A stretch of 64,000 bases of DNA from the NCBI RefSeq assembly GCF_000970305.1, contig NZ_CP009517.1, forward strand, positions 1-64,000. The letters run 5' to 3'. Under the pieces are notes generated by a model. The model saw only the letters and a list, made by a program, of their open reading frames with translations, was not told the DNA's origin and made no database searches. A program made the position numbers and the translations under genes. Shown here one piece after another: positions 1,154 through 22,379 of this stretch (position 1 is its first letter; each line of letters starts with the position of its first letter). The stretch is from Methanosarcina barkeri 3 (GTDB lineage Archaea; Halobacteriota; Methanosarcinia; Methanosarcinales; Methanosarcinaceae).

Positions 1154-2398
1154 ATGATAAAAGCTCAATCATTAGACGGCTTATTCGAAAAATTACTTGA
1201 CGGAAAATCAATTTTCAAAAACAAAGAAGTACTTCGACCTTCTTACACACCTGACCTTTTATTGCACAGAAACGAGCAAATTAGCAGTCTTGCGACAATT
1301 CTGGTTTCTGCACTCAGAGGAGAGACTCCTTCCAATGTACTTATTTATGGAAAAACCGGAACAGGAAAAACCGCGGTTACTCGTTATGTTGGAAAAGAAC
1401 TTGAAAGAGTAAGTGAAGACAAATCCCTTTTCTGCTCGGTTGTTTATATTAATTGCGAAGTAATCGATACACAGTACCGGCTTCTTGCAAATCTTGCTAG
1501 ACATTTCGAAGAAGAAGTTCCTATGACCGGGTGGCCTACTGACCAGGTTTTCATGAAATTTAAGGAGGCAATCGATTCCAGAGAGCAGGTCATTGTCATA
1601 ATTCTGGACGAAATCGATAAGCTAATTAAAAAAGGCGATGATGTTCTTTATAATCTGTCGAGAATCAACACAGACCTGCGGAGAGCCAAAGTCAGTATGA
1701 TCGGCGTTTCCAACGATCTTAAGTTCACAGAATTTCTGGACCCCAGGGTCAAAAGTTCCCTGGGTGAAGAAGAACTTATTTTTCCTCCTTACGACGCTGA
1801 ACAGATAAGCGATATCCTGAAGCAAAGAGCAAAGATGGCTTACACTAGTGACGCTCTCGGTGAGATGGTAATTCCCTTATGTGCTGCTTTTGCAGCTCAG
1901 GAACATGGTGACGCAAGGCGCGCACTTGACCTTCTCCGGGTCTCGGGGGAGATTGCAGAAAGGGAAAATCAGCCTCAGGTTCTTGAAGAGCACGTAAGGC
2001 GCGCTCAAGAAAAAATCGAAATTGATCGCGTAGTCGAAGTGGTAAGAACCCTTCCCACCCAGTCCAAACTCGTACTCTACAGTATCATTCTTTTGCGGAG
2101 CAGGGGTAGAGAAGGTAAGAACGTCACGACAGGCGAAATGTATAATGTTTACCGCCAGCTCTGCCACCATATTGATGTAGATATTCTTACTCAGCGTAGA
2201 GTTACCGATCTCATGTCCGAACTTGATATGCTGGGCATAGTCAACGCAGTGGTTGTAAGTAAAGGCCGTTACGGTAGAACTAAAGAAATTTCTCTGAGCG
2301 TTCCAGTAGAAAGCACCCGTAAAGTACTTCTTGAGGATTACAGGCTCAAACCCCTGGTAGATTTCAAGGCGTCAGTTTTCAGCAAGATGTTTTCATAA
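1154..2398 (+). CDS. cdc6: Orc1/Cdc6 family replication initiator
   Basis: This 414-residue AAA+ ATPase should bind origin recognition boxes and load the MCM helicase. Walker A (GKTGTGKTA, about residues 65-73) and Walker B (VIIILDEIDKL, about 145-155) are intact. A sensor-2 type arginine segment (GDARRALDLLR) follows, then a C-terminal winged-helix region from about residue 300. The length is normal for archaeal Orc1/Cdc6-1. The start is supported by an AGAGGATC ribosome-binding site just upstream. It stands alone with its own terminator and is preceded by an ORB-bearing AT-rich spacer, as expected for an origin-linked initiator. Confidence 0.96.
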   Translation: MIKAQSLDGLFEKLLDGKSIFKNKEVLRPSYTPDLLLHRNEQISSLATILVSALRGETPSNVLIYGKTGTGKTAVTRYVGKELERVSEDKSLFCSVVYINCEVIDTQYRLLANLARHFEEEVPMTGWPTDQVFMKFKEAIDSREQVIVIILDEIDKLIKKGDDVLYNLSRINTDLRRAKVSMIGVSNDLKFTEFLDPRVKSSLGEEELIFPPYDAEQISDILKQRAKMAYTSDALGEMVIPLCAAFAAQEHGDARRALDLLRVSGEIAERENQPQVLEEHVRRAQEKIEIDRVVEVVRTLPTQSKLVLYSIILLRSRGREGKNVTTGEMYNVYRQLCHHIDVDILTQRRVTDLMSELDMLGIVNAVVVSKGRYGRTKEISLSVPVESTRKVLLEDYRLKPLVDFKASVFSKMFS

Positions 2399-11136: not shown

Positions 11137-11913
11137 TCATTCTTCAAGTGTACTTATTATATTTCTGCGAGCTAGAAAACCAGCAAGTTCATCATCCAAG
11201 CTAAGGACTGGAACACCTCCGACATCATGTTCCAACATTATCCTAACAGCTTCTTCAAGCGGTGTATTGGTATAGACACTAATCACACTACGAGTCATAA
11301 TATCCCCTACCAATAGGTTCTTGATCCTTGAATCCTGCTGATTATCAGCGACTAGGTCCCTAAAAGAACGCATAGCAAAGGCAATATCATCTTCAGCAAT
11401 AATGCCTACAAGTTTTCCGCTCTCAATTACTGGCAGCCTTCCTACGTTTTTGTCAAGGATAAGTCGCCTAGCGTGGCTAACCCTATCAGATGAACTGATA
11501 ACTATAGGGTTTCTTTCCATTATTTCCCCGACAAAGCCTGTGAAGTGGTTTCGTTTCATGAATTCCTGGGGTGTCACCCAACCCAGGGCTTTTCCATTAT
11601 CAGTGACAATAATTACGCCACCACTCTTTTTCATCAGGGTAAGAACATCCCTGGTGTCGGTGTCAGGCAGAACCTTTATGAAATTGTCGGATACGGCTGT
11701 TGCAACATGCAGAGAGGATGCAGGTTTGCTCAGTTTCTTGCGAGTTCCGAGCTCCTCTGTCAGACTTCTCATTGTAAGTACACCAAGTATCTGATCATCG
11801 TGGACTACCAGCAGGCGCTTTGTGTCCTTCTTTTCCATAAGATCCAGGGCGTGAGATATGGTGTCTGACTTGTCAATCCTATATGGCTGTACCATTATAT
11901 CTTTAACTTGCAT
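11137..11913 (-). CDS. CBS-domain protein (two CBS pairs)
   Basis: This 258-residue protein is made of two CBS pairs (about 1-120 and 125-258). Typical segments are [66 protein letters not shown] and [19 protein letters not shown] pairs usually bind adenosine nucleotides or S-adenosyl ligands and act as sensors. No fused effector domain is present. The start is set at the ATG at 11913, since GAGGTGAA lies seven bases upstream; an in-frame GTG inside that motif is unlikely to be used. It is the last gene of five CBS genes running leftward. Confidence 0.9.
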
Positions 11914-12102
11914 GCAATTCACCTCATGCGTATCCAGAACTTTTAATCATAATGTTCGCAATTTTTTGCGTGCTTTCTTCATCCGTTTTTCCTTTACTTC
12001 AATTTCGCATCCTTCTCTTGCTCTTAGCTGTTTTATCTATCGCTCTCTATTGCTTTCTATTGCTACTTTTGCAGTATATACCTCCGCACTGCCAGATAAT
12101 GG

Positions 12103-12948
12103 TTAGAGGATGGCTTTCATGATATCGGTTCTGCTTAATATTCCAACTATATTTTCTCCGTCACTGACAGGTAATGCAGTCACTCCTTCCTCTATCATTT
12201 TTTTAGCAGCTTCACTGACATTTTCATTTACGTCAATGGAGTTTATCGGAGAAACCATGATGTCTTCTGCGGTTAAAGGCACCTCTTTTACGTATCTGAA
12301 GGTTTTCTGGCCTCCAGGTGAGGATTTACGTGCCATCTTGATGTTTTTCGTGGAAAGTTCGCCTTGAAAATCAGTTAAGAGATTTAAAGCAAGGCTTTTG
12401 CTGGAAATTATCCCTACAGGCTTTCCTGCATCATCTTTGACGATTACTCTTTCGATCTCATTCCTGTTCATTTCATCAATTACGTGGTTAATAGTGTGAT
12501 GCCGGTGAACAGAAATAGTATCTTCAGACATTAACTTGGGGATTTTTGTTTTCATTTCCTCGCTATTTTCCGCAACATAACGCACAAGATCTGTCCTGGT
12601 GATAATGCCTACAATATCGTTCTTTACCACCGGAATGTTATGCACCCCGTTCTCAAGCATTAAGGCAGCTGCCTGGGAAATAGAGGCTTCAGGATAGATA
12701 GTAATAACCGATTCAGTCATCAGTAACTTAATAGGGATCTGGTCAATCGGTCTTCTCCTCCAGAGAGGTTCGGCCTGAGCCAGACGGTTAGTGATGTCTG
12801 ATTTTGTAACGATTCCCACCATCTTGCCCTCATTGAGGACAAGCAATGTACTGATTCTATGCCTTAACATCAGTTTTCTTGCACGTGACACGGGTTCGTC
12901 TGCGTTTAGGACATACACAGGTGAACTCATGATGTCCGCCACATTCAT
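12103..12948 (-). CDS. CBS-domain protein (two CBS pairs)
   Basis: This 281-residue protein is built only of CBS repeats. The first pair opens with [20 protein letters not shown], and the second ends with [21 protein letters not shown] linker of about 35 residues ([10 protein letters not shown]...[10 protein letters not shown]) separates the third and fourth repeats. A perfect AAGGAGGT box lies seven bases before ATG. It lies 189 bp upstream of the previous CBS gene. A ligand-sensing regulatory role is inferred from the family; the partner is unknown. Confidence 0.9.
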
Positions 12949-13231
12949 GAAGTACCTCCTTCACTTTTACAATATATGAGTATCAATAATTATACTTTTT
13001 GAATTGGATGTGAAAGCTACAATTTTTAACTATAGGCTGTAGATTTTTAGGGGAGTAACCAGTACCTCTTGTTAAAGTGAGAGCTATTTTAAAAGTTCTT
13101 ATTTTTGAAAATCCTTGTTTTAAAATAGACTACACTCCAAATCCTGAATATTCAATGTATAGATTACTTCTCGACCTATCTACAAAGTAGGCTTATTTCC
13201 TGGTAGGTTCAGCTAGAGGATTTTTCTTTTT

Positions 13232-13474
13232 TAAAACTCTTGAAAACTTAGCCTCCTTAAACCTTAAACTCCTGAAAACTTAGTCTCCTTAAACCTTAAA
13301 CTCTTGAAAACTTAGCCTCCTTAAACCTTAAACTCCTGAAAACTTAGTCTCCTTAAACCTTAAACTCCTGAAAACTTAGTCTCCTTAAACCTTAAACTCT
13401 TGAAAACTTAGTCTTCTTAAACCTCAAACTCCTGAAAGCTTAATCTCCTTAAACCTCAAACTCTTGAAAGCTTA
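13232..13474. repeat. 32-bp tandem repeat array
   Basis: About eight copies of a 32-bp unit beginning CTCCTTAAACCTTAAACTCC fill the middle of the 12949-13618 spacer between CBS genes. It is not CRISPR: the copies abut without unique spacers. The rest of the spacer shows no gene. Confidence 0.9.
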
Positions 13475-13495
13475 AGCCCGAAGTTTTTTCGGGCT
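13475..13495 (-). terminator. Hairpin between CBS genes
   Basis: AGCCCGAA pairs with TTCGGGCT around a short T-rich loop. It lies about 120 bp past the 13619 stop on the minus strand. It could terminate that gene; there is no strong T-run in that direction, so this is tentative. Confidence 0.4.
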
Positions 13496-13618
13496 CAGTC
13501 AACTTAAGGCTCAGTTAGACTTTAGTTTCACTAAACTTTGTTAAGTTTCAGGATAGTTTGAGCTAGCTTGAACTAGCATGACGGTTTTGATCAATTGAAA
13601 CCAGTTCTGTTCAATTGA

Positions 13619-14626
13619 TTATTTACCAGGTTCATTCAGAGATCTAAGGAAATCCCTTTCAGTAATGATGCCGCGGATTAGTCCATTCTCCAAAATCGGA
13701 AGTGAACCTATCTTTTTCTCAAGCATTATTTCCATCGCTTTTCCCAGGTCTGTACCCGGTTCAGTCCATATCAGTTCTTTTGAGACAATAGATCCTACAG
13801 GCTGGTCAAGCGCTTCATGAATGTTTCCTGTTGTCAGCTTACTGAAAGCGTCTCCCCTTCCAAGGAAATGGACAATATCAGTGGAAGTGATAATTCCTGC
13901 GAAGATGCCATCTTTAACTACAGGAAGTCTTCGGAGCCAGTTATCTACCATTACTTTTGCTGCCTGTCCAATGGGTGTCTCAGTTGACACCATCTTGACG
14001 TTCTTGGTCATATATTCATCAACAGTTCGGCTTGTCACGATTCCGCCCATCAGTTCAATTGCATTCCTTTCGGTAAAGATTGCAACGACCTGCATGTCAT
14101 TGTTCACGATTGGAAGGCCGCCTCTTTTTCTTTCAATCATCATTGAAACAGCATCTTTAAAATCAGCCTGGTCATTAAGGTAGGGAATATTAGTTTCCAT
14201 GATTTGCCGTACTTCTTCGTTGATTGCAGCCAGAAGGTTACCTTTGAAGCGGTTTTCAACGAGCAGATTCTTTCTTCCGCCCCCCAGGAAATCGATAATA
14301 TCTACGGAAGTAACAACTCCTTCCAGCCTCCGCGTTCCGGCGTTTGTAATAGGAATGCGTCTGAACCTCTTTTCAGTCATAATCTTGATTGCTTCCATAA
14401 CTGTTGCAGTAGGAGGAAGGGTTACTACACTCCTCGTTGCCAGGGCCAGAATTTTTCCTTCATGTTCTGAAATACGGGATTTAAACTCAGGACCTATTCG
14501 CATAGTGCCCATGCTGCTAATCATGTGCGGGTCTTTCTGCTGCGCTTTCTTGGATTTGCTCACGCCTGGCTGAACTTTCATCTTATCGACGGACGAAAAT
14601 GTCGTATTTTTGTTCAATAGGACCAC
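13619..14626 (-). CDS. CBS-domain protein (two CBS pairs) with basic N-terminal tail
   Basis: This protein has about 335 residues. A poorly conserved, Lys-rich N-terminus of about 60 residues precedes two CBS pairs. Signature stretches are [79 protein letters not shown] and [19 protein letters not shown]. The start is uncertain: GTG at 14626, TTG nine bases later, or ATG at about 14581 (MKVQPGV). It is the largest single-copy CBS protein of the cluster, and the basic tail is unlike its neighbours. Confidence 0.88.
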
Positions 14627-14884
14627 CGAATTCGAGTTGCAGTTAATTGCTTTTTTAGTATTCCATTTCTTCTTTTCCTGCTTTCTTGCGGAAACTTCCC
14701 TGGAATCTGCAGTTCATTCCTCAACAGACCCAGATTTGCTCCCGGAAAAAATAAAACCTGAAAGCAATTTTTCCCGAATCTTTCCGAAAGGTTTCCTTTA
14801 TTTTAGATTTATAATTATTATTAATGATGATCTTTGATGTTATAATCTTTTTGCGTGAAAACTTGCTGCTGTTTTTCGCATTGC

Positions 14885-15076
14885 ATTAATTCTCAGTTAA
14901 TTATTTGTTTAATTCTGAGTTAATTTTTTGTTTAATTCTCAGCTAATTGTTTTTTTAATTCTGAGTTAATTGTTTTTTAATTCTAAGTTAATTGTTTTTT
15001 AATTCTAAGTTAATTGTTTTTTAATTCTAAGTTAATTGTTTTTTAATTCTAAGTTAATTGTTTTTTTAATTCTGCG
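14885..15076. repeat. 22-bp tandem repeat array
   Basis: About nine copies of TTAATTCTAAGTTAATTGTT (22-bp period including two more T residues) lie between two CBS genes. The first copies carry CTGAG and the later ones CTAAG. No gene is present in the 14627-15122 spacer. Confidence 0.88.
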
Positions 15077-15122
15077 ATTATCTGTTATTCTTTCACCGGA
15101 TACCTTCATTACACAGTTTTTT

Positions 15123-15938
15123 TCAAAGGCGATTTTCGAAGGTTTTTTCAGGCCATACATTGACAATAGATTCCAGAAGGTCCTGTCTATCGACGAGTCC
15201 AGATACCCTATCCTTTTCATTTACTATGGTAACCCTTCCAATATCATAGTAAATAATCATCTTAATTGCACTTTGAATGGAATCATTTTCTGACAGTGTA
15301 TACGTAGGGGTTGACATTATCTTTTCAACTTTTGGGCTCTCATTAGGCCTTGTTCGCCTTTCATCTTCCGTTTCAGTGCGCACAGCACCTGATTTGATTA
15401 TGTCTCTGCGGGTTATCATTCCAACCGGTTCGCCTTTCTTTGAAACTACAGGAATACCCGTATAATCGGTCTCGAGCATATGCGCCCAGACTACACTGAC
15501 TTTGTCCTCTTGTGAACACGTTTTGACTTTTTTCGTCATCATGGTCTGCAGTGTTTTAGGAACATTTTTTGGGACTTCGACATTTCTGAGAATATCCACA
15601 TTACTCAGGACTCCAACCACCGTACGATCCGTAGTTGATTTAACAACGGGAACTCTGTTCTGCTTCGATTGCACCATCAGTTTTGCGGCCTTTATAATAT
15701 CCATATCCGGAGTGACTGTAGGGGATTGGCTTGCATACCCGCCTACTGTGACATTCGAGCGTGTAGAGGTAATCCTCAAGATATCCTGGTCACTCAGCAT
15801 TCCCACAAGCCTGTTCTCTTCGTCAACAACAACAAGACTTCGAAGAAGGTAATCGCGCATCAGCTGACGGGCACGAGTCACAAACTCTCCTTCTTTGATA
15901 CTCACAGGCTCATCTGTCATAATCTCACTAACGTTCAC
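15123..15938 (-). CDS. CBS-domain protein (two CBS pairs)
   Basis: This 271-residue protein consists of two CBS pairs. Typical stretches are [76 protein letters not shown] and [20 protein letters not shown]. It starts with GTG behind a perfect AAGGAGGT. It sits 66 bp downstream of the larger CBS-zinc-ribbon gene, so these two are probably co-transcribed. A nucleotide-sensing role is inferred from the family. Confidence 0.9.
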
Positions 15939-16003
15939 TATATACCTCCTTATACTCTCTTTAAAAAAGATGTCTCTGGAAATCGATATCTAAAGATTGT
16001 GAG

Positions 16004-17272
16004 TTATTCGTAGTCTTCGCCTTCTTCCTGCCTGCAGTTTCTGCATAAATATTTACCGTGTACATACTTGAGGTCAACGGAAAAAACTAAACAGGATTCA
16101 CATATACCAGTTATAAAATCCTCTAAATCTTCTGAAATCTCTTCTCTTGAGGGAATGGAGAATAGGGCTTCTCTATTCATATCAACAAGGTTTCTGAGGA
16201 TAGTATCAATTCCGGGTGTTATTGCCAGGATATCAGTATTCGAAATTATTCCTATTACTGTCCTATCTTTCAGGACTGGCAGTCTTTTGATATTAGCTTT
16301 TAACATAATTTCGGAAGCTTCTGCAATACTTTTTTCGGGTTCTATGGTTATGAGAGGACTCGAAAAAATGTCCTTCGCTTCCACTTCACTTGGTTTTTTA
16401 TTCTCTGTAACAATATTTTTAACAATATCCCTTTCAGTTATAATCCCTATAGCTTTATCATTCTCTGTGACGATAACACTACCTGCATCACGACTGACCA
16501 TTTCTCTTGCAATAGAAGGAATATCTGAGTTGATATCCATTACTATTACTGCTTTATTCATAGCCCTAGTAACCGAAACTTTATTGATGTCTCTGTTATG
16601 AATGCCGGCATATTTTCCCCTGTCAGCATCTATGTCCTTTTCGTGCCGACAGTTTCCGCATAAGTATCTGCCATCTACATACCTGAGGTCAATGGAAGTA
16701 GAACCACACAATTCACATACATTCATTCTGGAATTTTCTAAATCTGGAATCTCATCTCTCGAGGGAATAGAGAGTAGGGCCTCTCTGTTCATATCAATAA
16801 GATCTCGAAGAATAGTATTAAGTCCAGGTGCTACCATCAGGATATCTGTATTCGAAATTACTCCTATTACTGTCCTATCTTTCAGGACTGGTAGTCTTTT
16901 AATTCTTGCTTTTAGCATGATTTCGGAAGCTTCTATTATGTTATTTTCAGGCTCTATGGTTATAAGAGGACTTGAGAGGACTTCTTTCGCTTCCACTTCA
17001 CTTGGTTTTTTATTCTCTGTAACAATATTTTTAACAATATCCCTTTCAGTTATGATCCCCATAGCTTTACCATTTTCTGTGACGATAACGCTTCCTGCAT
17101 CACGACTGGCTATTTCTCTTGCAATAGAAGGAATATCTGAGTTGATATCCATTACTATTACTGCTTTGTTCATAACCTCAGCAACTGAGAGTTCTCTTTC
17201 AATCTCTTTATTGTGAATGCCAGCATATTTTCCCCTGTCAGCATCTATGTCCTTTTCAGGTCCATCTGCCAT
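16004..17272 (-). CDS. Tandemly duplicated CBS-pair plus zinc-ribbon protein
   Basis: This 422-residue protein is an internal duplication of about 206 residues. Each half has a short DIDADRGKYAGIHN segment, a CBS pair and a zinc ribbon. The ribbons are CELCGS...YLCGNC in the first half and CESCLV...YLCRNC in the second. The halves are about 80% identical by eye, with long identical runs such as GIITERDIVKNIVTENKKPS, so the duplication is recent or kept homogeneous. The zinc ribbon suggests a nucleic-acid or protein contact added to nucleotide sensing; this is inference. It faces the ORB-bearing spacer. Confidence 0.88.
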   Translation of the reverse strand: MADGPEKDIDADRGKYAGIHNKEIERELSVAEVMNKAVIVMDINSDIPSIAREIASRDAGSVIVTENGKAMGIITERDIVKNIVTENKKPSEVEAKEVLSSPLITIEPENNIIEASEIMLKARIKRLPVLKDRTVIGVISNTDILMVAPGLNTILRDLIDMNREALLSIPSRDEIPDLENSRMNVCELCGSTSIDLRYVDGRYLCGNCRHEKDIDADRGKYAGIHNRDINKVSVTRAMNKAVIVMDINSDIPSIAREMVSRDAGSVIVTENDKAIGIITERDIVKNIVTENKKPSEVEAKDIFSSPLITIEPEKSIAEASEIMLKANIKRLPVLKDRTVIGIISNTDILAITPGIDTILRNLVDMNREALFSIPSREEISEDLEDFITGICESCLVFSVDLKYVHGKYLCRNCRQEEGEDYE

Positions 17273-17740
17273 CTACTGCCATTCCCCCTTTGTCCTTTAT
17301 GTCGGCAATTAATAATATAAAGTTCACAGTATAAAATTCACAGTATAAAAAGCCAAAATGTAGAATTTACGATATAAATTTACGATTGAAGTTTTTTAAG
17401 TATCCACTTTCTAGAAAACGTTCCATGTTGGTTTAGTTTTCCTTCCAGTCTATACTCTGAAATTATTAGTTTTTTAAAGACAATACTGCGGCGAAGCTCG
17501 TTATCCCGAATTTGTTTTTGTCAGCATCCTCTAAGATGTTTTCCCCATAATTTTCGGATTTTTTTACAGCATTTATATATACGAGTCAATGGTACATAAT
17601 GATAACGGCATTTTGCTTTTTTCATAAAACACATAAAACTTTATAAAATCAAGGACATTCACTTTAAATCTCCAGTTAGCTTGTTTCTGGTGAATTCATA
17701 GTAAAAAAATTTATAGCACGCACACAGGAATTTTTTAAGT

Positions 17741-17761
17741 ACCCCTTTGTTTCCACTGGAG
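17741..17761 (-). promoter_or_regulatory. Origin recognition box (ORB)
   Basis: On the minus strand it reads TCCAGTGGAAACAAAGGGGT, an essentially canonical archaeal ORB with dyad core and G-string. It lies in the spacer 3' of the RPA gene and 5' of the CBS-zinc-ribbon gene. Confidence 0.75.
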
Positions 17762-17917
17762 ATTTTTGCTGAGAATGAAAAATGCTCCATTATCTGGAAG
17801 AAGTATTAGAAAGAAGTGCAGAAGAGAAGTATATCTTAGAAAACAGGTTTATACAGTTTAAAAAAATCAAAATTATATTTGTAATGCTTTCTATTTTTCT
17901 CACAGTAAATTTTTCAG

Positions 17918-17938
17918 ACCCCTTTATTTCCACTGGAA
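17918..17938 (-). promoter_or_regulatory. Origin recognition box (ORB)
   Basis: On the minus strand it reads TTCCAGTGGAAATAAAGGGG followed by T. It has the same orientation as the box at 17741 and nearly the same sequence as the box at 19-40. Two such matches within 200 bp are hard to ascribe to chance. Confidence 0.75.
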
Positions 17939-18000
17939 AACACTTCACAAGCTTTTACCGCGAAAAGCATGGTTTAAGAAATAAACCAGAAAGAAGACAC

Positions 18001-18095
18001 TGAAAAAGGATAACGATTAAAGCATAAAAAGGATAACGATTAGAACATAAAAAGGATAACGATTAAAGCATAAAAAGGAATAAAGATTAGAGCAT
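18001..18095. repeat. 23-bp tandem repeat overlapping the RPA stop
   Basis: Four copies of a unit reading AAAAAGGATAACGATTAAAG plus CAT; the last copy is diverged and contains the RPA stop codon. Confidence 0.85.
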
Positions 18096-19541
18096 AATTA
18101 CTCTGCTCCGATTCCCGATGCTAAGTTCAATTTCTTCGTTCAGACCATACTTCGCGTAAGCATTAATTATCTGGATTTCGGAGTCAATATCAAGATCTTC
18201 GATCACATAAGCCTGTTCTCCCCAGAGAGTTATCTTTATGCTGCCAGTTTCGTCCTTTAATCGAAGGTTTGCAACTACATTCTCGGTTCCGTCTTCCCTT
18301 TCAAACTCTTTGAGTTCCCCTATTTCGGAAACCTTACCCTGAACCGAATAGCTTTCCCCAGGGATAATATCAGCAATATCCGTAAACTTTTCTTTGTACT
18401 CAATTTCCTTTTCACTCTTCTGGATTATTCCTCGGCCTCCCAGGTTGAGTTCTATCTGCTGGCTGAATGCATTTTCCCGAGAGTAAGCATGAAGTACTTC
18501 TATGGTCTCGTCAAAATCGACTTCATCCAGAAAACTGGTTTTTTCATCCCATAGAGTCAGTCTGATTTTTCCAGTGGAATCTCCAAGAAGAAGATTTCCA
18601 ACTCTTCCGGTAGACCCGTCTTTTTTCTCAAAAGTCCGGATTTCTCCTATATCGAGTACTCTACCTGAAATGTTTATATTGCTCATATCAGCCCTGATGT
18701 CCTCAATTGGAATAAATTCCTCTTCGTACTCGACTTTTTTCTCACTTTTCCTTATTATGCTTCGATTTCCTACCTGTAGTTCAACTTTCTGAGTAAAGGC
18801 GTTCTCTCGCGCATAAGCATTGACCAGTTCAATAGTGTCTCCGTATTCTACCTGGTTCAGGAATTCGGTTCTGTCGTCCCAAAGGGTTACTCTGACTGTG
18901 CCTGTACTATCCCCGAGAAGCAGGTTTCCTACCTGTCCGCTAGTGCCATCTTTCCGCTGGAAAGTTCTTACATCTGAAATTTCCAGGATTTTTCCTGTTA
19001 AATTGAGATCTCCCATACCGTCTTTTATATCCTTTATTTTCTGGCTGCTGGCAGCCACATCGATTTCTTCTTCGCTCTCGGCCAGGACTCCGTTATTTCC
19101 TACATTGACCTCTACTCCTGAGTATCCCTGCTTCGCATAACCGCTAACCTGAAGAGTTTGCCCTACTTTGATTTTTTCAGCTTTTATAAGATCTGCCATG
19201 TTATCCCAGAGCGTTATCCTGATCTTTCCTGTTTCATCTCCAACAATTATATTTCCGACTCTACCTATCGTCCCATCATTTCGAGTAAATTCTTTGGTGT
19301 CGAAAACCGACACAACTTTTGCAACAAAATTTATTTGTCCGCTTTCAGCTGTAATGTTTTCAATTTTCACACTGTCCCGACCTACATCTGAAAACCCAAG
19401 TTCGTTGGCAACTAGCATGGCAGCCATGGGTTCATCGCAAAGCCCTCCCATGCTTTCGACCTTTTCCTGTACATGCTGCAGGAAGTCTTCTTTACTGATA
19501 ACGTGGCTGAGCTTCTTATAGATTGATTCGATATCTGTCAT
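18087..19541 (-). CDS. Replication protein A with four OB folds
   Basis: This 484-residue single-stranded-DNA-binding protein has four repeated OB-fold units. Each contains a variant of REFxRxDGTxGxVxNLxxGDxTGxIRxTLWDD (near residues 85, 205, 305 and 410). This is the architecture reported for RPA1 of Methanosarcina acetivorans. No zinc finger is present. It would coat ssDNA during replication and repair. An AAGGGGATAAT ribosome-binding site precedes ATG. Two ORBs lie just past its 3' end, placing it next to a putative initiation zone. Confidence 0.93.
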   Translation of the reverse strand: MTDIESIYKKLSHVISKEDFLQHVQEKVESMGGLCDEPMAAMLVANELGFSDVGRDSVKIENITAESGQINFVAKVVSVFDTKEFTRNDGTIGRVGNIIVGDETGKIRITLWDNMADLIKAEKIKVGQTLQVSGYAKQGYSGVEVNVGNNGVLAESEEEIDVAASSQKIKDIKDGMGDLNLTGKILEISDVRTFQRKDGTSGQVGNLLLGDSTGTVRVTLWDDRTEFLNQVEYGDTIELVNAYARENAFTQKVELQVGNRSIIRKSEKKVEYEEEFIPIEDIRADMSNINISGRVLDIGEIRTFEKKDGSTGRVGNLLLGDSTGKIRLTLWDEKTSFLDEVDFDETIEVLHAYSRENAFSQQIELNLGGRGIIQKSEKEIEYKEKFTDIADIIPGESYSVQGKVSEIGELKEFEREDGTENVVANLRLKDETGSIKITLWGEQAYVIEDLDIDSEIQIINAYAKYGLNEEIELSIGNRSRVIML

Positions 19542-21377: not shown

Positions 21378-22379
21378 TCAACTCACGCACACTTCAAAAA
21401 GCCCTTCTTTTTTTTCTATCCTGAAGTTAACATCCAGAAACTGTTCAGTAACCCAAATATTTGTCTTAGTGTGAAGAGAGAGTTCACGGACAGTGTAAGA
21501 ACTATTTCCTGCAAGAGCCATGTACGGTATTAGCTGGTCTGCCAGATATGTGTCAACAGAAGCTCCTGATCTAAGTTCAAGAATAATTTCGTCTGCAGCA
21601 TATTTACCCACTTTTTCTGCTGGGAGTCCTCTTTTCCCAAGGGCACTCCCACCCATATAGCCTGTCCAGAGAGTTATCCCGCTTCCAGTGGAAAAAGCTT
21701 CAAAGGATTGAGTTTCAATTTGAGATGGGTATCCGGCTTCTATTAATCTTGTACTGGCAGCTTCGGCCTGGCGTAAAGGTACATGAGCCGGAAGATTTGA
21801 AGCATGAGAAATTCCCTTGATCTCTTCTTCTTGTTCTTCTTTTAAAAAATGAAAACCTCGTAGCCTGCACGGTTTAAAATAAGCCGAAACTTTTCCTCCC
21901 CCTTTAGGGTAGTACCCGTGTTCTTTCAGGGTTACACTGCCTGAGTATCCAAGTTGCTTCAGAGCGCTAAAGGTAACATGCTGCAGGTAATCCATTGTCG
22001 GAGACCAGGCAACGTCAGTTCCCCCTTTTATCGTTAGTTCGACTTCCTCTTTCGCAAAAGGCAGGGCTGGCATAATGCACTGGAGAAACAAGGTTATGCT
22101 TCCTGCAGTCCCGATATCAATATCATACTTACCCCCCTTTATTTCAACTGGAACAAAAGAAAGTTCAGTAGAGCCTGGAAAAAGTCCCGAGATCTGAGCT
22201 TGACAGATCTTGGCCGCTGTTTCCAGAGCCTTTAAATGCTGTTGTTTCAGGCCAGGATTTGGCCGGTTTTTCCTGATATTCGTAACTCTGATCCCTTTTC
22301 CAGTAACTGCGGAAAGAGCAACAGCCGTTCTGACCAACTGCCCTCCTCCTTCACCATAAGAGCCGTCGATTTCTAACAT
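21378..22379 (-). CDS. rtcA: RNA 3'-terminal phosphate cyclase
   Basis: This 333-residue enzyme converts RNA 3'-phosphate to a 2',3'-cyclic phosphate using ATP. Family marks are the N-terminal MLEIDGSYGEGGGQLVRTAV, GTAGSITLFLQ (about 93-103), KEHGYYPKGGGKVSAY, and the C-terminal LSLHTKTNIWVTEQFL with the catalytic His. The start is set at the ATG at 22379, because GGGAGA precedes it; an in-frame ATG 15 bases upstream lacks a site. It probably follows the flavoprotein gene upstream in the same direction, separated by a repeat array. An ORB-like string lies inside the coding sequence (22131-22153). Confidence 0.94.
   Translation of the reverse strand: MLEIDGSYGEGGGQLVRTAVALSAVTGKGIRVTNIRKNRPNPGLKQQHLKALETAAKICQAQISGLFPGSTELSFVPVEIKGGKYDIDIGTAGSITLFLQCIMPALPFAKEEVELTIKGGTDVAWSPTMDYLQHVTFSALKQLGYSGSVTLKEHGYYPKGGGKVSAYFKPCRLRGFHFLKEEQEEEIKGISHASNLPAHVPLRQAEAASTRLIEAGYPSQIETQSFEAFSTGSGITLWTGYMGGSALGKRGLPAEKVGKYAADEIILELRSGASVDTYLADQLIPYMALAGNSSYTVRELSLHTKTNIWVTEQFLDVNFRIEKKEGLFEVCVS
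22131..22153 (-). promoter_or_regulatory. ORB-like sequence inside rtcA
   Basis: On the minus strand it reads TTCCAGTTGAAATAAAGGGG plus GGT. It differs from the 17918 box by one core base and has a longer G-string. It encodes PVEIKGG of RtcA, so coding constraint may explain it. Confidence 0.35.

Follow-up and report, generated by a model that had tools for sequence, protein, structure and literature searches.

In nearly all Methanosarcina species, two near-consensus initiator boxes (ORBs) are conserved about 17 kb from the replication origin, between the replication factor A gene (RPA) and a cluster of CBS-domain genes. We tentatively read this pair as an origin-linked, non-origin candidate binding site for Orc1/Cdc6-1 that may sequester the initiator. 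The conservation of initiator boxes outside the origin suggests, as far as comparison of genomes goes, a second kind of initiator-binding control site. The boxes had been pointed out in an initial annotation of the window, the 64,000-bp stretch analysed here; what our analysis adds is their genus-wide conservation, their near-constant spacing and, elsewhere in the genome, another conserved array off the origin.

Position and quality of the boxes

The genome scanned is a single contig of 4,560,446 bp, and the window is its start. ORB1, the RPA-proximal box, lies at 17918-17937 on the minus strand (TCCAGTGGAAATAAAGGGGT) and matches the 20-bp ORB without a mismatch; ORB2, the CBS-proximal box, lies at 17741-17760 on the same strand (TCCAGTGGAAACAAAGGGGT) and differs from it at one base. 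The start-to-start distance is 177 bp, and the DNA between the boxes is 73% AT. The initial annotation, which had described two near-consensus ORBs in the same orientation at this spacing, is borne out by these exact coordinates. Each box consists of the TTCCAGTGGAAA dyad followed by a GGGG string, as do the organism's own oriC boxes.

At no more than one mismatch, six sites occur genome-wide against 0.0014 expected under an order-3 Markov model. With up to three mismatches to the 20-bp box there are 13 sites in the whole genome, versus one for the reversed pattern, and across 31 Methanosarcina genomes TCCAGTSGAAAYAAAGGGGT at up to two mismatches gives 276 sites in sum against 14 for the reversed-pattern control. 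The sites are clustered, contrary to the random scatter that the initial annotation had named as a refutation: they fall at oriC beside orc1/cdc6, at the RPA/CBS pair and at an array at 2.80 Mb, with a few singles, some of them intragenic. The pair boxes have a mean mismatch of 0.41 and 0.11 over 27 species, whereas the boxes at oriC in these genomes mostly have 1-3 and so stand further from consensus.

Conservation and spacing across genomes

Both boxes were found 3' of RPA in direct orientation in 27 of 29 informative Methanosarcina genomes. Altogether 31 were searched: two related genomes have ORB1 only, one contig ends early, and one incomplete assembly is without the gene. Judged by the RPA protein, the nearest named relative of the present genome is M. 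spelaei (99% identity), and the relatives retrieved are Methanosarcina. The pair also occurs in the sister genus (3/3 genomes checked). It is absent from 15 sampled genomes of other genera; the other genera of the family do have RPA, mostly with a nearby CBS homologue.

The spacing between the boxes is 177 bp in ten Methanosarcina genomes, 178 bp in 11, 179 bp in two and 180 bp in one, so that 24 of 27 fall within 177-180 bp; single genomes have 173, 168 and 247 bp, the last with an insertion that shows in the alignment. In the sister genus the spacing is 167-168 bp. At 10.5 bp per turn, nearly all of these values are at most 0.15 turn off a whole number, including the 168 bp of one Methanosarcina genome and the 167-168 bp of the sister genus, the exceptions being 173 and 247 bp. 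Since the species share ancestry, we treat the whole-turn spacing as suggestive and attach no significance test to it. The distance from the RPA stop codon to ORB1 ranges from 78 to 948 bp and is at least 701 bp in two genomes. On a larger scale, in all checked Methanosarcina genomes that carry both on the same contig, about 14-18 kb separate the pair from the cdc6 start; in two genomes of the sister genus, its distance to oriC is about 21 kb.

Second array and single boxes

The second array found by the genome scan consists of three ORBs, all on the minus strand, at 2799098, 2800911 and 2801541 (G000:C1:2799098-2801560; L017:6099-8561). It occupies the spacer between two convergent genes, one for ADHS (2-amino-3,7-dideoxy-D-threo-hept-6-ulosonate synthase) and a radical-SAM gene; a transposase-like ORF between the boxes is, by eye, presumably IS110-like. 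All 10 Methanosarcina species examined, like the sister genus, have two to three direct boxes at the ADHS spacer, always oriented with ADHS, and in a third genus (3/3 genomes) a single perfect box follows the ADHS gene by 37-81 bp or less. A spacer between convergent genes is a poor site for a promoter operator, and the array thus favours a role of the bound initiator as such. A second chromosomal origin at 2.80 Mb is rejected, given that AT and keto skew have no extremum there in the stretches sampled and that the distance from array to oriC varies between species from about 0.28 to 1.76 Mb.

Several single boxes were also recorded. An ORB-like sequence at 22133-22152 of the window lies inside the RTC gene (RNA 3'-phosphate cyclase); as it encodes PVEIKGG of that enzyme and recurs at the same place in relatives, it is probably a coding coincidence or constraint. 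TGCAGTGGAAATAAGGGGGT at 3136305 gives in frame what we take, by eye, to be a shikimate-dehydrogenase-like peptide. Several relatives share the single box-like site CACAGTGGAAATAAAGGGGT at G000:C1:4514195-4514214 (L020:5196; also L253, L254, L255); it lies beyond oriC, about 46-48 kb away on the opposite side, in the spacer 3' of a methionine-synthase-like gene. Two further genera of the family have a near-consensus ORB in a divergent spacer (L245:5810, L246:6414, L247:6010), approximately 160-270 bp upstream of a gene resembling proteasome-activating nucleotidase.

Neighbouring genes and the putative CBS promoter

The RPA gene (RPA1-like, 484 aa) occupies 18087-19541 on the minus strand, and its stop codon adjoins the spacer that holds the pair. 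The boxes are intergenic and evolutionarily conserved there, in agreement with the location first assigned to them between RPA and the CBS cluster. The description of the pair as beside RPA can be refined: the boxes lie 3' of the gene, away from its promoter. As RPA runs leftwards and has its 3' end at this spacer, the pair cannot be its promoter, and control of RPA by the pair is rejected. The next gene downstream, at 16004-17272 (minus strand), encodes a protein with four CBS domains and has its start codon about 470 bp from the pair. It belongs to a run of five tandem minus-strand genes at 11137-17272 of the window, between cdc6 and RPA, each with four CBS domains.

The initial annotation had also proposed an Orc1-dependent regulator of RPA and CBS genes. 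The RPA half of that proposal falls with the orientation of the gene; the CBS half is possible, and leads to the first alternative to sequestration, namely that Orc1/Cdc6-1 acts here as a transcription factor and that the pair is an upstream operator or enhancer coupling expression of the CBS cluster to the level or nucleotide state of the initiator. ORB2 stands at a median distance of 143 bp (138-162 bp in 29/30 genomes) from a highly conserved putative CBS promoter element at 17577-17608 (minus strand, CCGTTATCATTATGTACCATTGACTCGTATAT), which as CCGTTATCNTTATGTACCATTGAYTCGTATAT ends in a TATA-like sequence and whose core (17585-17608) has a unique match in the genome. The element is found in every genome that has the pair, and both are absent from the 15 sampled genomes of other genera, though most of these keep a CBS homologue near RPA. 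An Orc1-family precedent exists in Sulfolobus Orc1-2, a known damage-response regulator (PMC9738581). In one genome (G017), however, about 5 kb inserted between RPA-ORB1 and the CBS gene have left the promoter element 5.3 kb from ORB1: the element is perfect (32/32) with no ORB nearby, and ORB1 is perfect beside RPA. Each thus persists apart from the other, and box and promoter are separable. The related genome G016 likewise has ORB1 only, and this lineage has lost ORB2. The distance to the promoter moreover varies more than the spacing between the boxes, and the other conserved array stands between convergent genes. On balance we consider control of the CBS cluster unlikely, while counting it as the most serious competitor.

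The origin at the record start

The canonical oriC wraps round the start of the record. Its boxes are at 4559524 (minus strand), 4559819 (plus strand; degenerate) and 4559858 (plus strand), and the outermost, with one mismatch, lies at 21-40 on the plus strand. This last is the opposing ORB that had been listed together with the pair at 19-40; it is real but belongs to oriC. Beside the origin lies orc1/cdc6-1 (1154-2398, plus strand), 16.6 kb from the pair, which is thus without an adjacent orc1/cdc6 gene. The best solved relative of the orc1/cdc6-1 product is Sulfolobus Orc1-1 (2qby_A), and the encoded initiator is of the Orc1-1 type. A second Cdc6 paralogue, cdc6-2, is encoded at 4473950-4475032. 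Between oriC and cdc6, at 420-960 of the window, are short AT-rich tandem repeats (TTTCCCTC units and CACTTAAAATTAAAAA-like units).

A second alternative, likewise raised at the outset, makes the pair an origin, whether accessory or dormant, or else one portion of an extended initiation zone. Near-consensus ORBs, an AT-rich spacer with a conserved central motif, and closeness to both oriC and the RPA gene are what such a site might be expected to offer. Its architecture is nonetheless a different one. In oriC, as aligned from 12 genomes, an inverted box is followed by an AT-rich element that is conserved (TATATATA...CATAACAAAACAACATTATTTTG...) and next by two boxes in tandem at a distance of 39 bp, whereas the boxes of the pair are direct in 27/27 species; Sulfolobus oriC1 requires both of its inverted boxes (PMC12141716). 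When the conserved AT-rich element of oriC was sought in the spacer of the pair, its best match had eight mismatches, versus one at oriC. Skew was sampled in 63 stretches of 20 kb, which together make up about a quarter of the genome. For AT skew as for keto skew the switch falls near 0 kb, although skew by itself does not tell 0 kb from 17.8 kb, a position too near to oriC and subject to local confounding by gene orientation. Direct boxes, the missing oriC element and the skew switch at oriC give a second origin or extended zone no support from architecture, and we hold it to be unlikely, though a live competitor.

Conserved DNA around the boxes

Both boxes are embedded in a conserved non-coding block of about 240 bp (17720-17960, minus strand), in which mean pairwise identity across 24 species is mostly 0.68-0.88, compared with about 0.3 on either side. 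Each box is extended on its 3' side: the extension of ORB1 (17903-17923, minus strand; consensus GGGGTCTGAAAAATTTCCTG) is repeated 3' of ORB2 (17725-17745, minus strand), and the two share the form GGGGT(N)CTGAAAAA(T)TTCCTG. At one mismatch or fewer, the sole match to the extension in the genome is that of ORB2, the ORB1 copy having three mismatches. Between the boxes, a AAATATAATT core at 17871-17880 (minus strand) is invariant in 27/27 aligned species.

It is conceivable that a different protein, a nucleoid- or chromosome-organising factor, uses this block and that the boxes are part of a structural site near the origin. The unit that extends beyond the ORB (GGGGTNCTGAAAAATTTCCTG) and the invariant core between the boxes would accord with such a factor, since neither is found beside the oriC boxes. 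The boxes themselves, however, are almost identical in sequence to those of oriC, and since the best-conserved 20 bp of the block are the ORB core, the same reader protein is indicated; we give a different protein little credence. Chance matches, or conservation caused by a small ORF or a structured RNA, have high AT content alone in their favour and hardly merit belief, given the expectation of 0.0014 sites per genome and the conservation in 27 species: single-base indels between species make a reading frame unlikely and so rule out a small ORF, and a structured RNA is ruled out by the absence of any Rfam match for the block, by weak fold z-scores (-0.47 and -0.43) and by covariation at 1/26 pairs.

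A candidate site for initiator control

Sequestration of Orc1/Cdc6-1, the reading that we tentatively prefer, is proposed by analogy with oriC2D of Haloarcula hispanica. Two initiator molecules might each occupy one box, both in the same orientation and with about 17 helical turns between them, a distance that would set both on one face of the DNA. By cooperative bending or looping, in which a factor on the conserved inner DNA might take part, they could then yield a stable complex that would keep initiator away from oriC. As the site lies 14-18 kb from oriC, it would be copied soon after initiation, so that its binding capacity would double at the time when re-initiation must be prevented, and the second array at the ADHS/radical-SAM locus might add to the sink.

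Three points weigh against a simple sink. Two boxes are few for titration, albeit near consensus and joined by 2-3 more at the 2.80-Mb array; ORB2 stands near the CBS promoter element, as a transcription regulator might; and plain titration leaves the near-fixed spacing and the conserved inner sequence unexplained. A more specific version is a dedicated archaeal initiator-control element, in which two Orc1 molecules on one face, about 17 turns apart, would loop the DNA into a conserved complex; this would sequester or remodel the initiator near oriC and act with the second array in once-per-cycle control in Methanosarcina. We regard this elaboration as possible but doubtful.

How archaea time initiation is largely open, and a 2014 review names Methanothermobacter thermautotrophicus as the only methanogen with an origin shown experimentally (PMC3984812). 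With its address defined, a non-origin element for the initiator would be directly testable in the genetically tractable Methanosarcina. If the boxes do act from the same face, half-turn shifts in their spacing should matter more than whole-turn shifts. Among the open-access papers searched, we found no description of off-origin ORBs in Methanosarcina; most subscription papers lie outside that set, and this silence is weak evidence of novelty.

Comparison with known systems

The ORB core followed by a G-string is common to the pair, to Sulfolobus oriC1 and to the Methanosarcina oriC at 0 kb, and the reader is presumably the same, Orc1/Cdc6-1. In archaeal origins, inverted boxes flank an AT-rich unwinding element beside the initiator gene, whereas the boxes here are direct and lack such an element. 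Were the CBS-promoter reading true, the pair would resemble the Orc1-2 regulon of Sulfolobales, in which an Orc1-family protein regulates transcription; Orc1-2, however, is a non-initiator paralogue (PMC9738581), whereas the boxes of the pair are of the initiator type. A more distant parallel is the DnaA-titrating datA locus of E. coli, which also has high-quality initiator boxes off the origin and has been proposed as a sink that is copied after initiation (PMC4010727, PMC3936714). Its boxes are bacterial DnaA boxes and the proteins are unrelated, so that the likeness is one of analogy only.

The closest counterpart is oriC2D of Haloarcula hispanica, a box cluster downstream of oriC2-cdc6E that has no origin activity and represses oriC2, likely by titration; the repression was partly reproduced with two boxes (PMC3936714). 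Like the pair, oriC2D comprises intergenic, origin-linked initiator boxes outside the origin and without origin architecture. It differs in having 11 boxes within 722 bp, directly beside its cdc6 gene, whereas the pair has two, at near-fixed spacing and about 16 kb away from cdc6, and the DNA that separates them is conserved. Genetic work has demonstrated negative control for oriC2D (PMC3936714), while the pair is known from its sequence. As a kind, the pair resembles oriC2D; as an instance, it differs in how many boxes it has, in their spacing, in how far it lies from cdc6 and in its conserved inner DNA.
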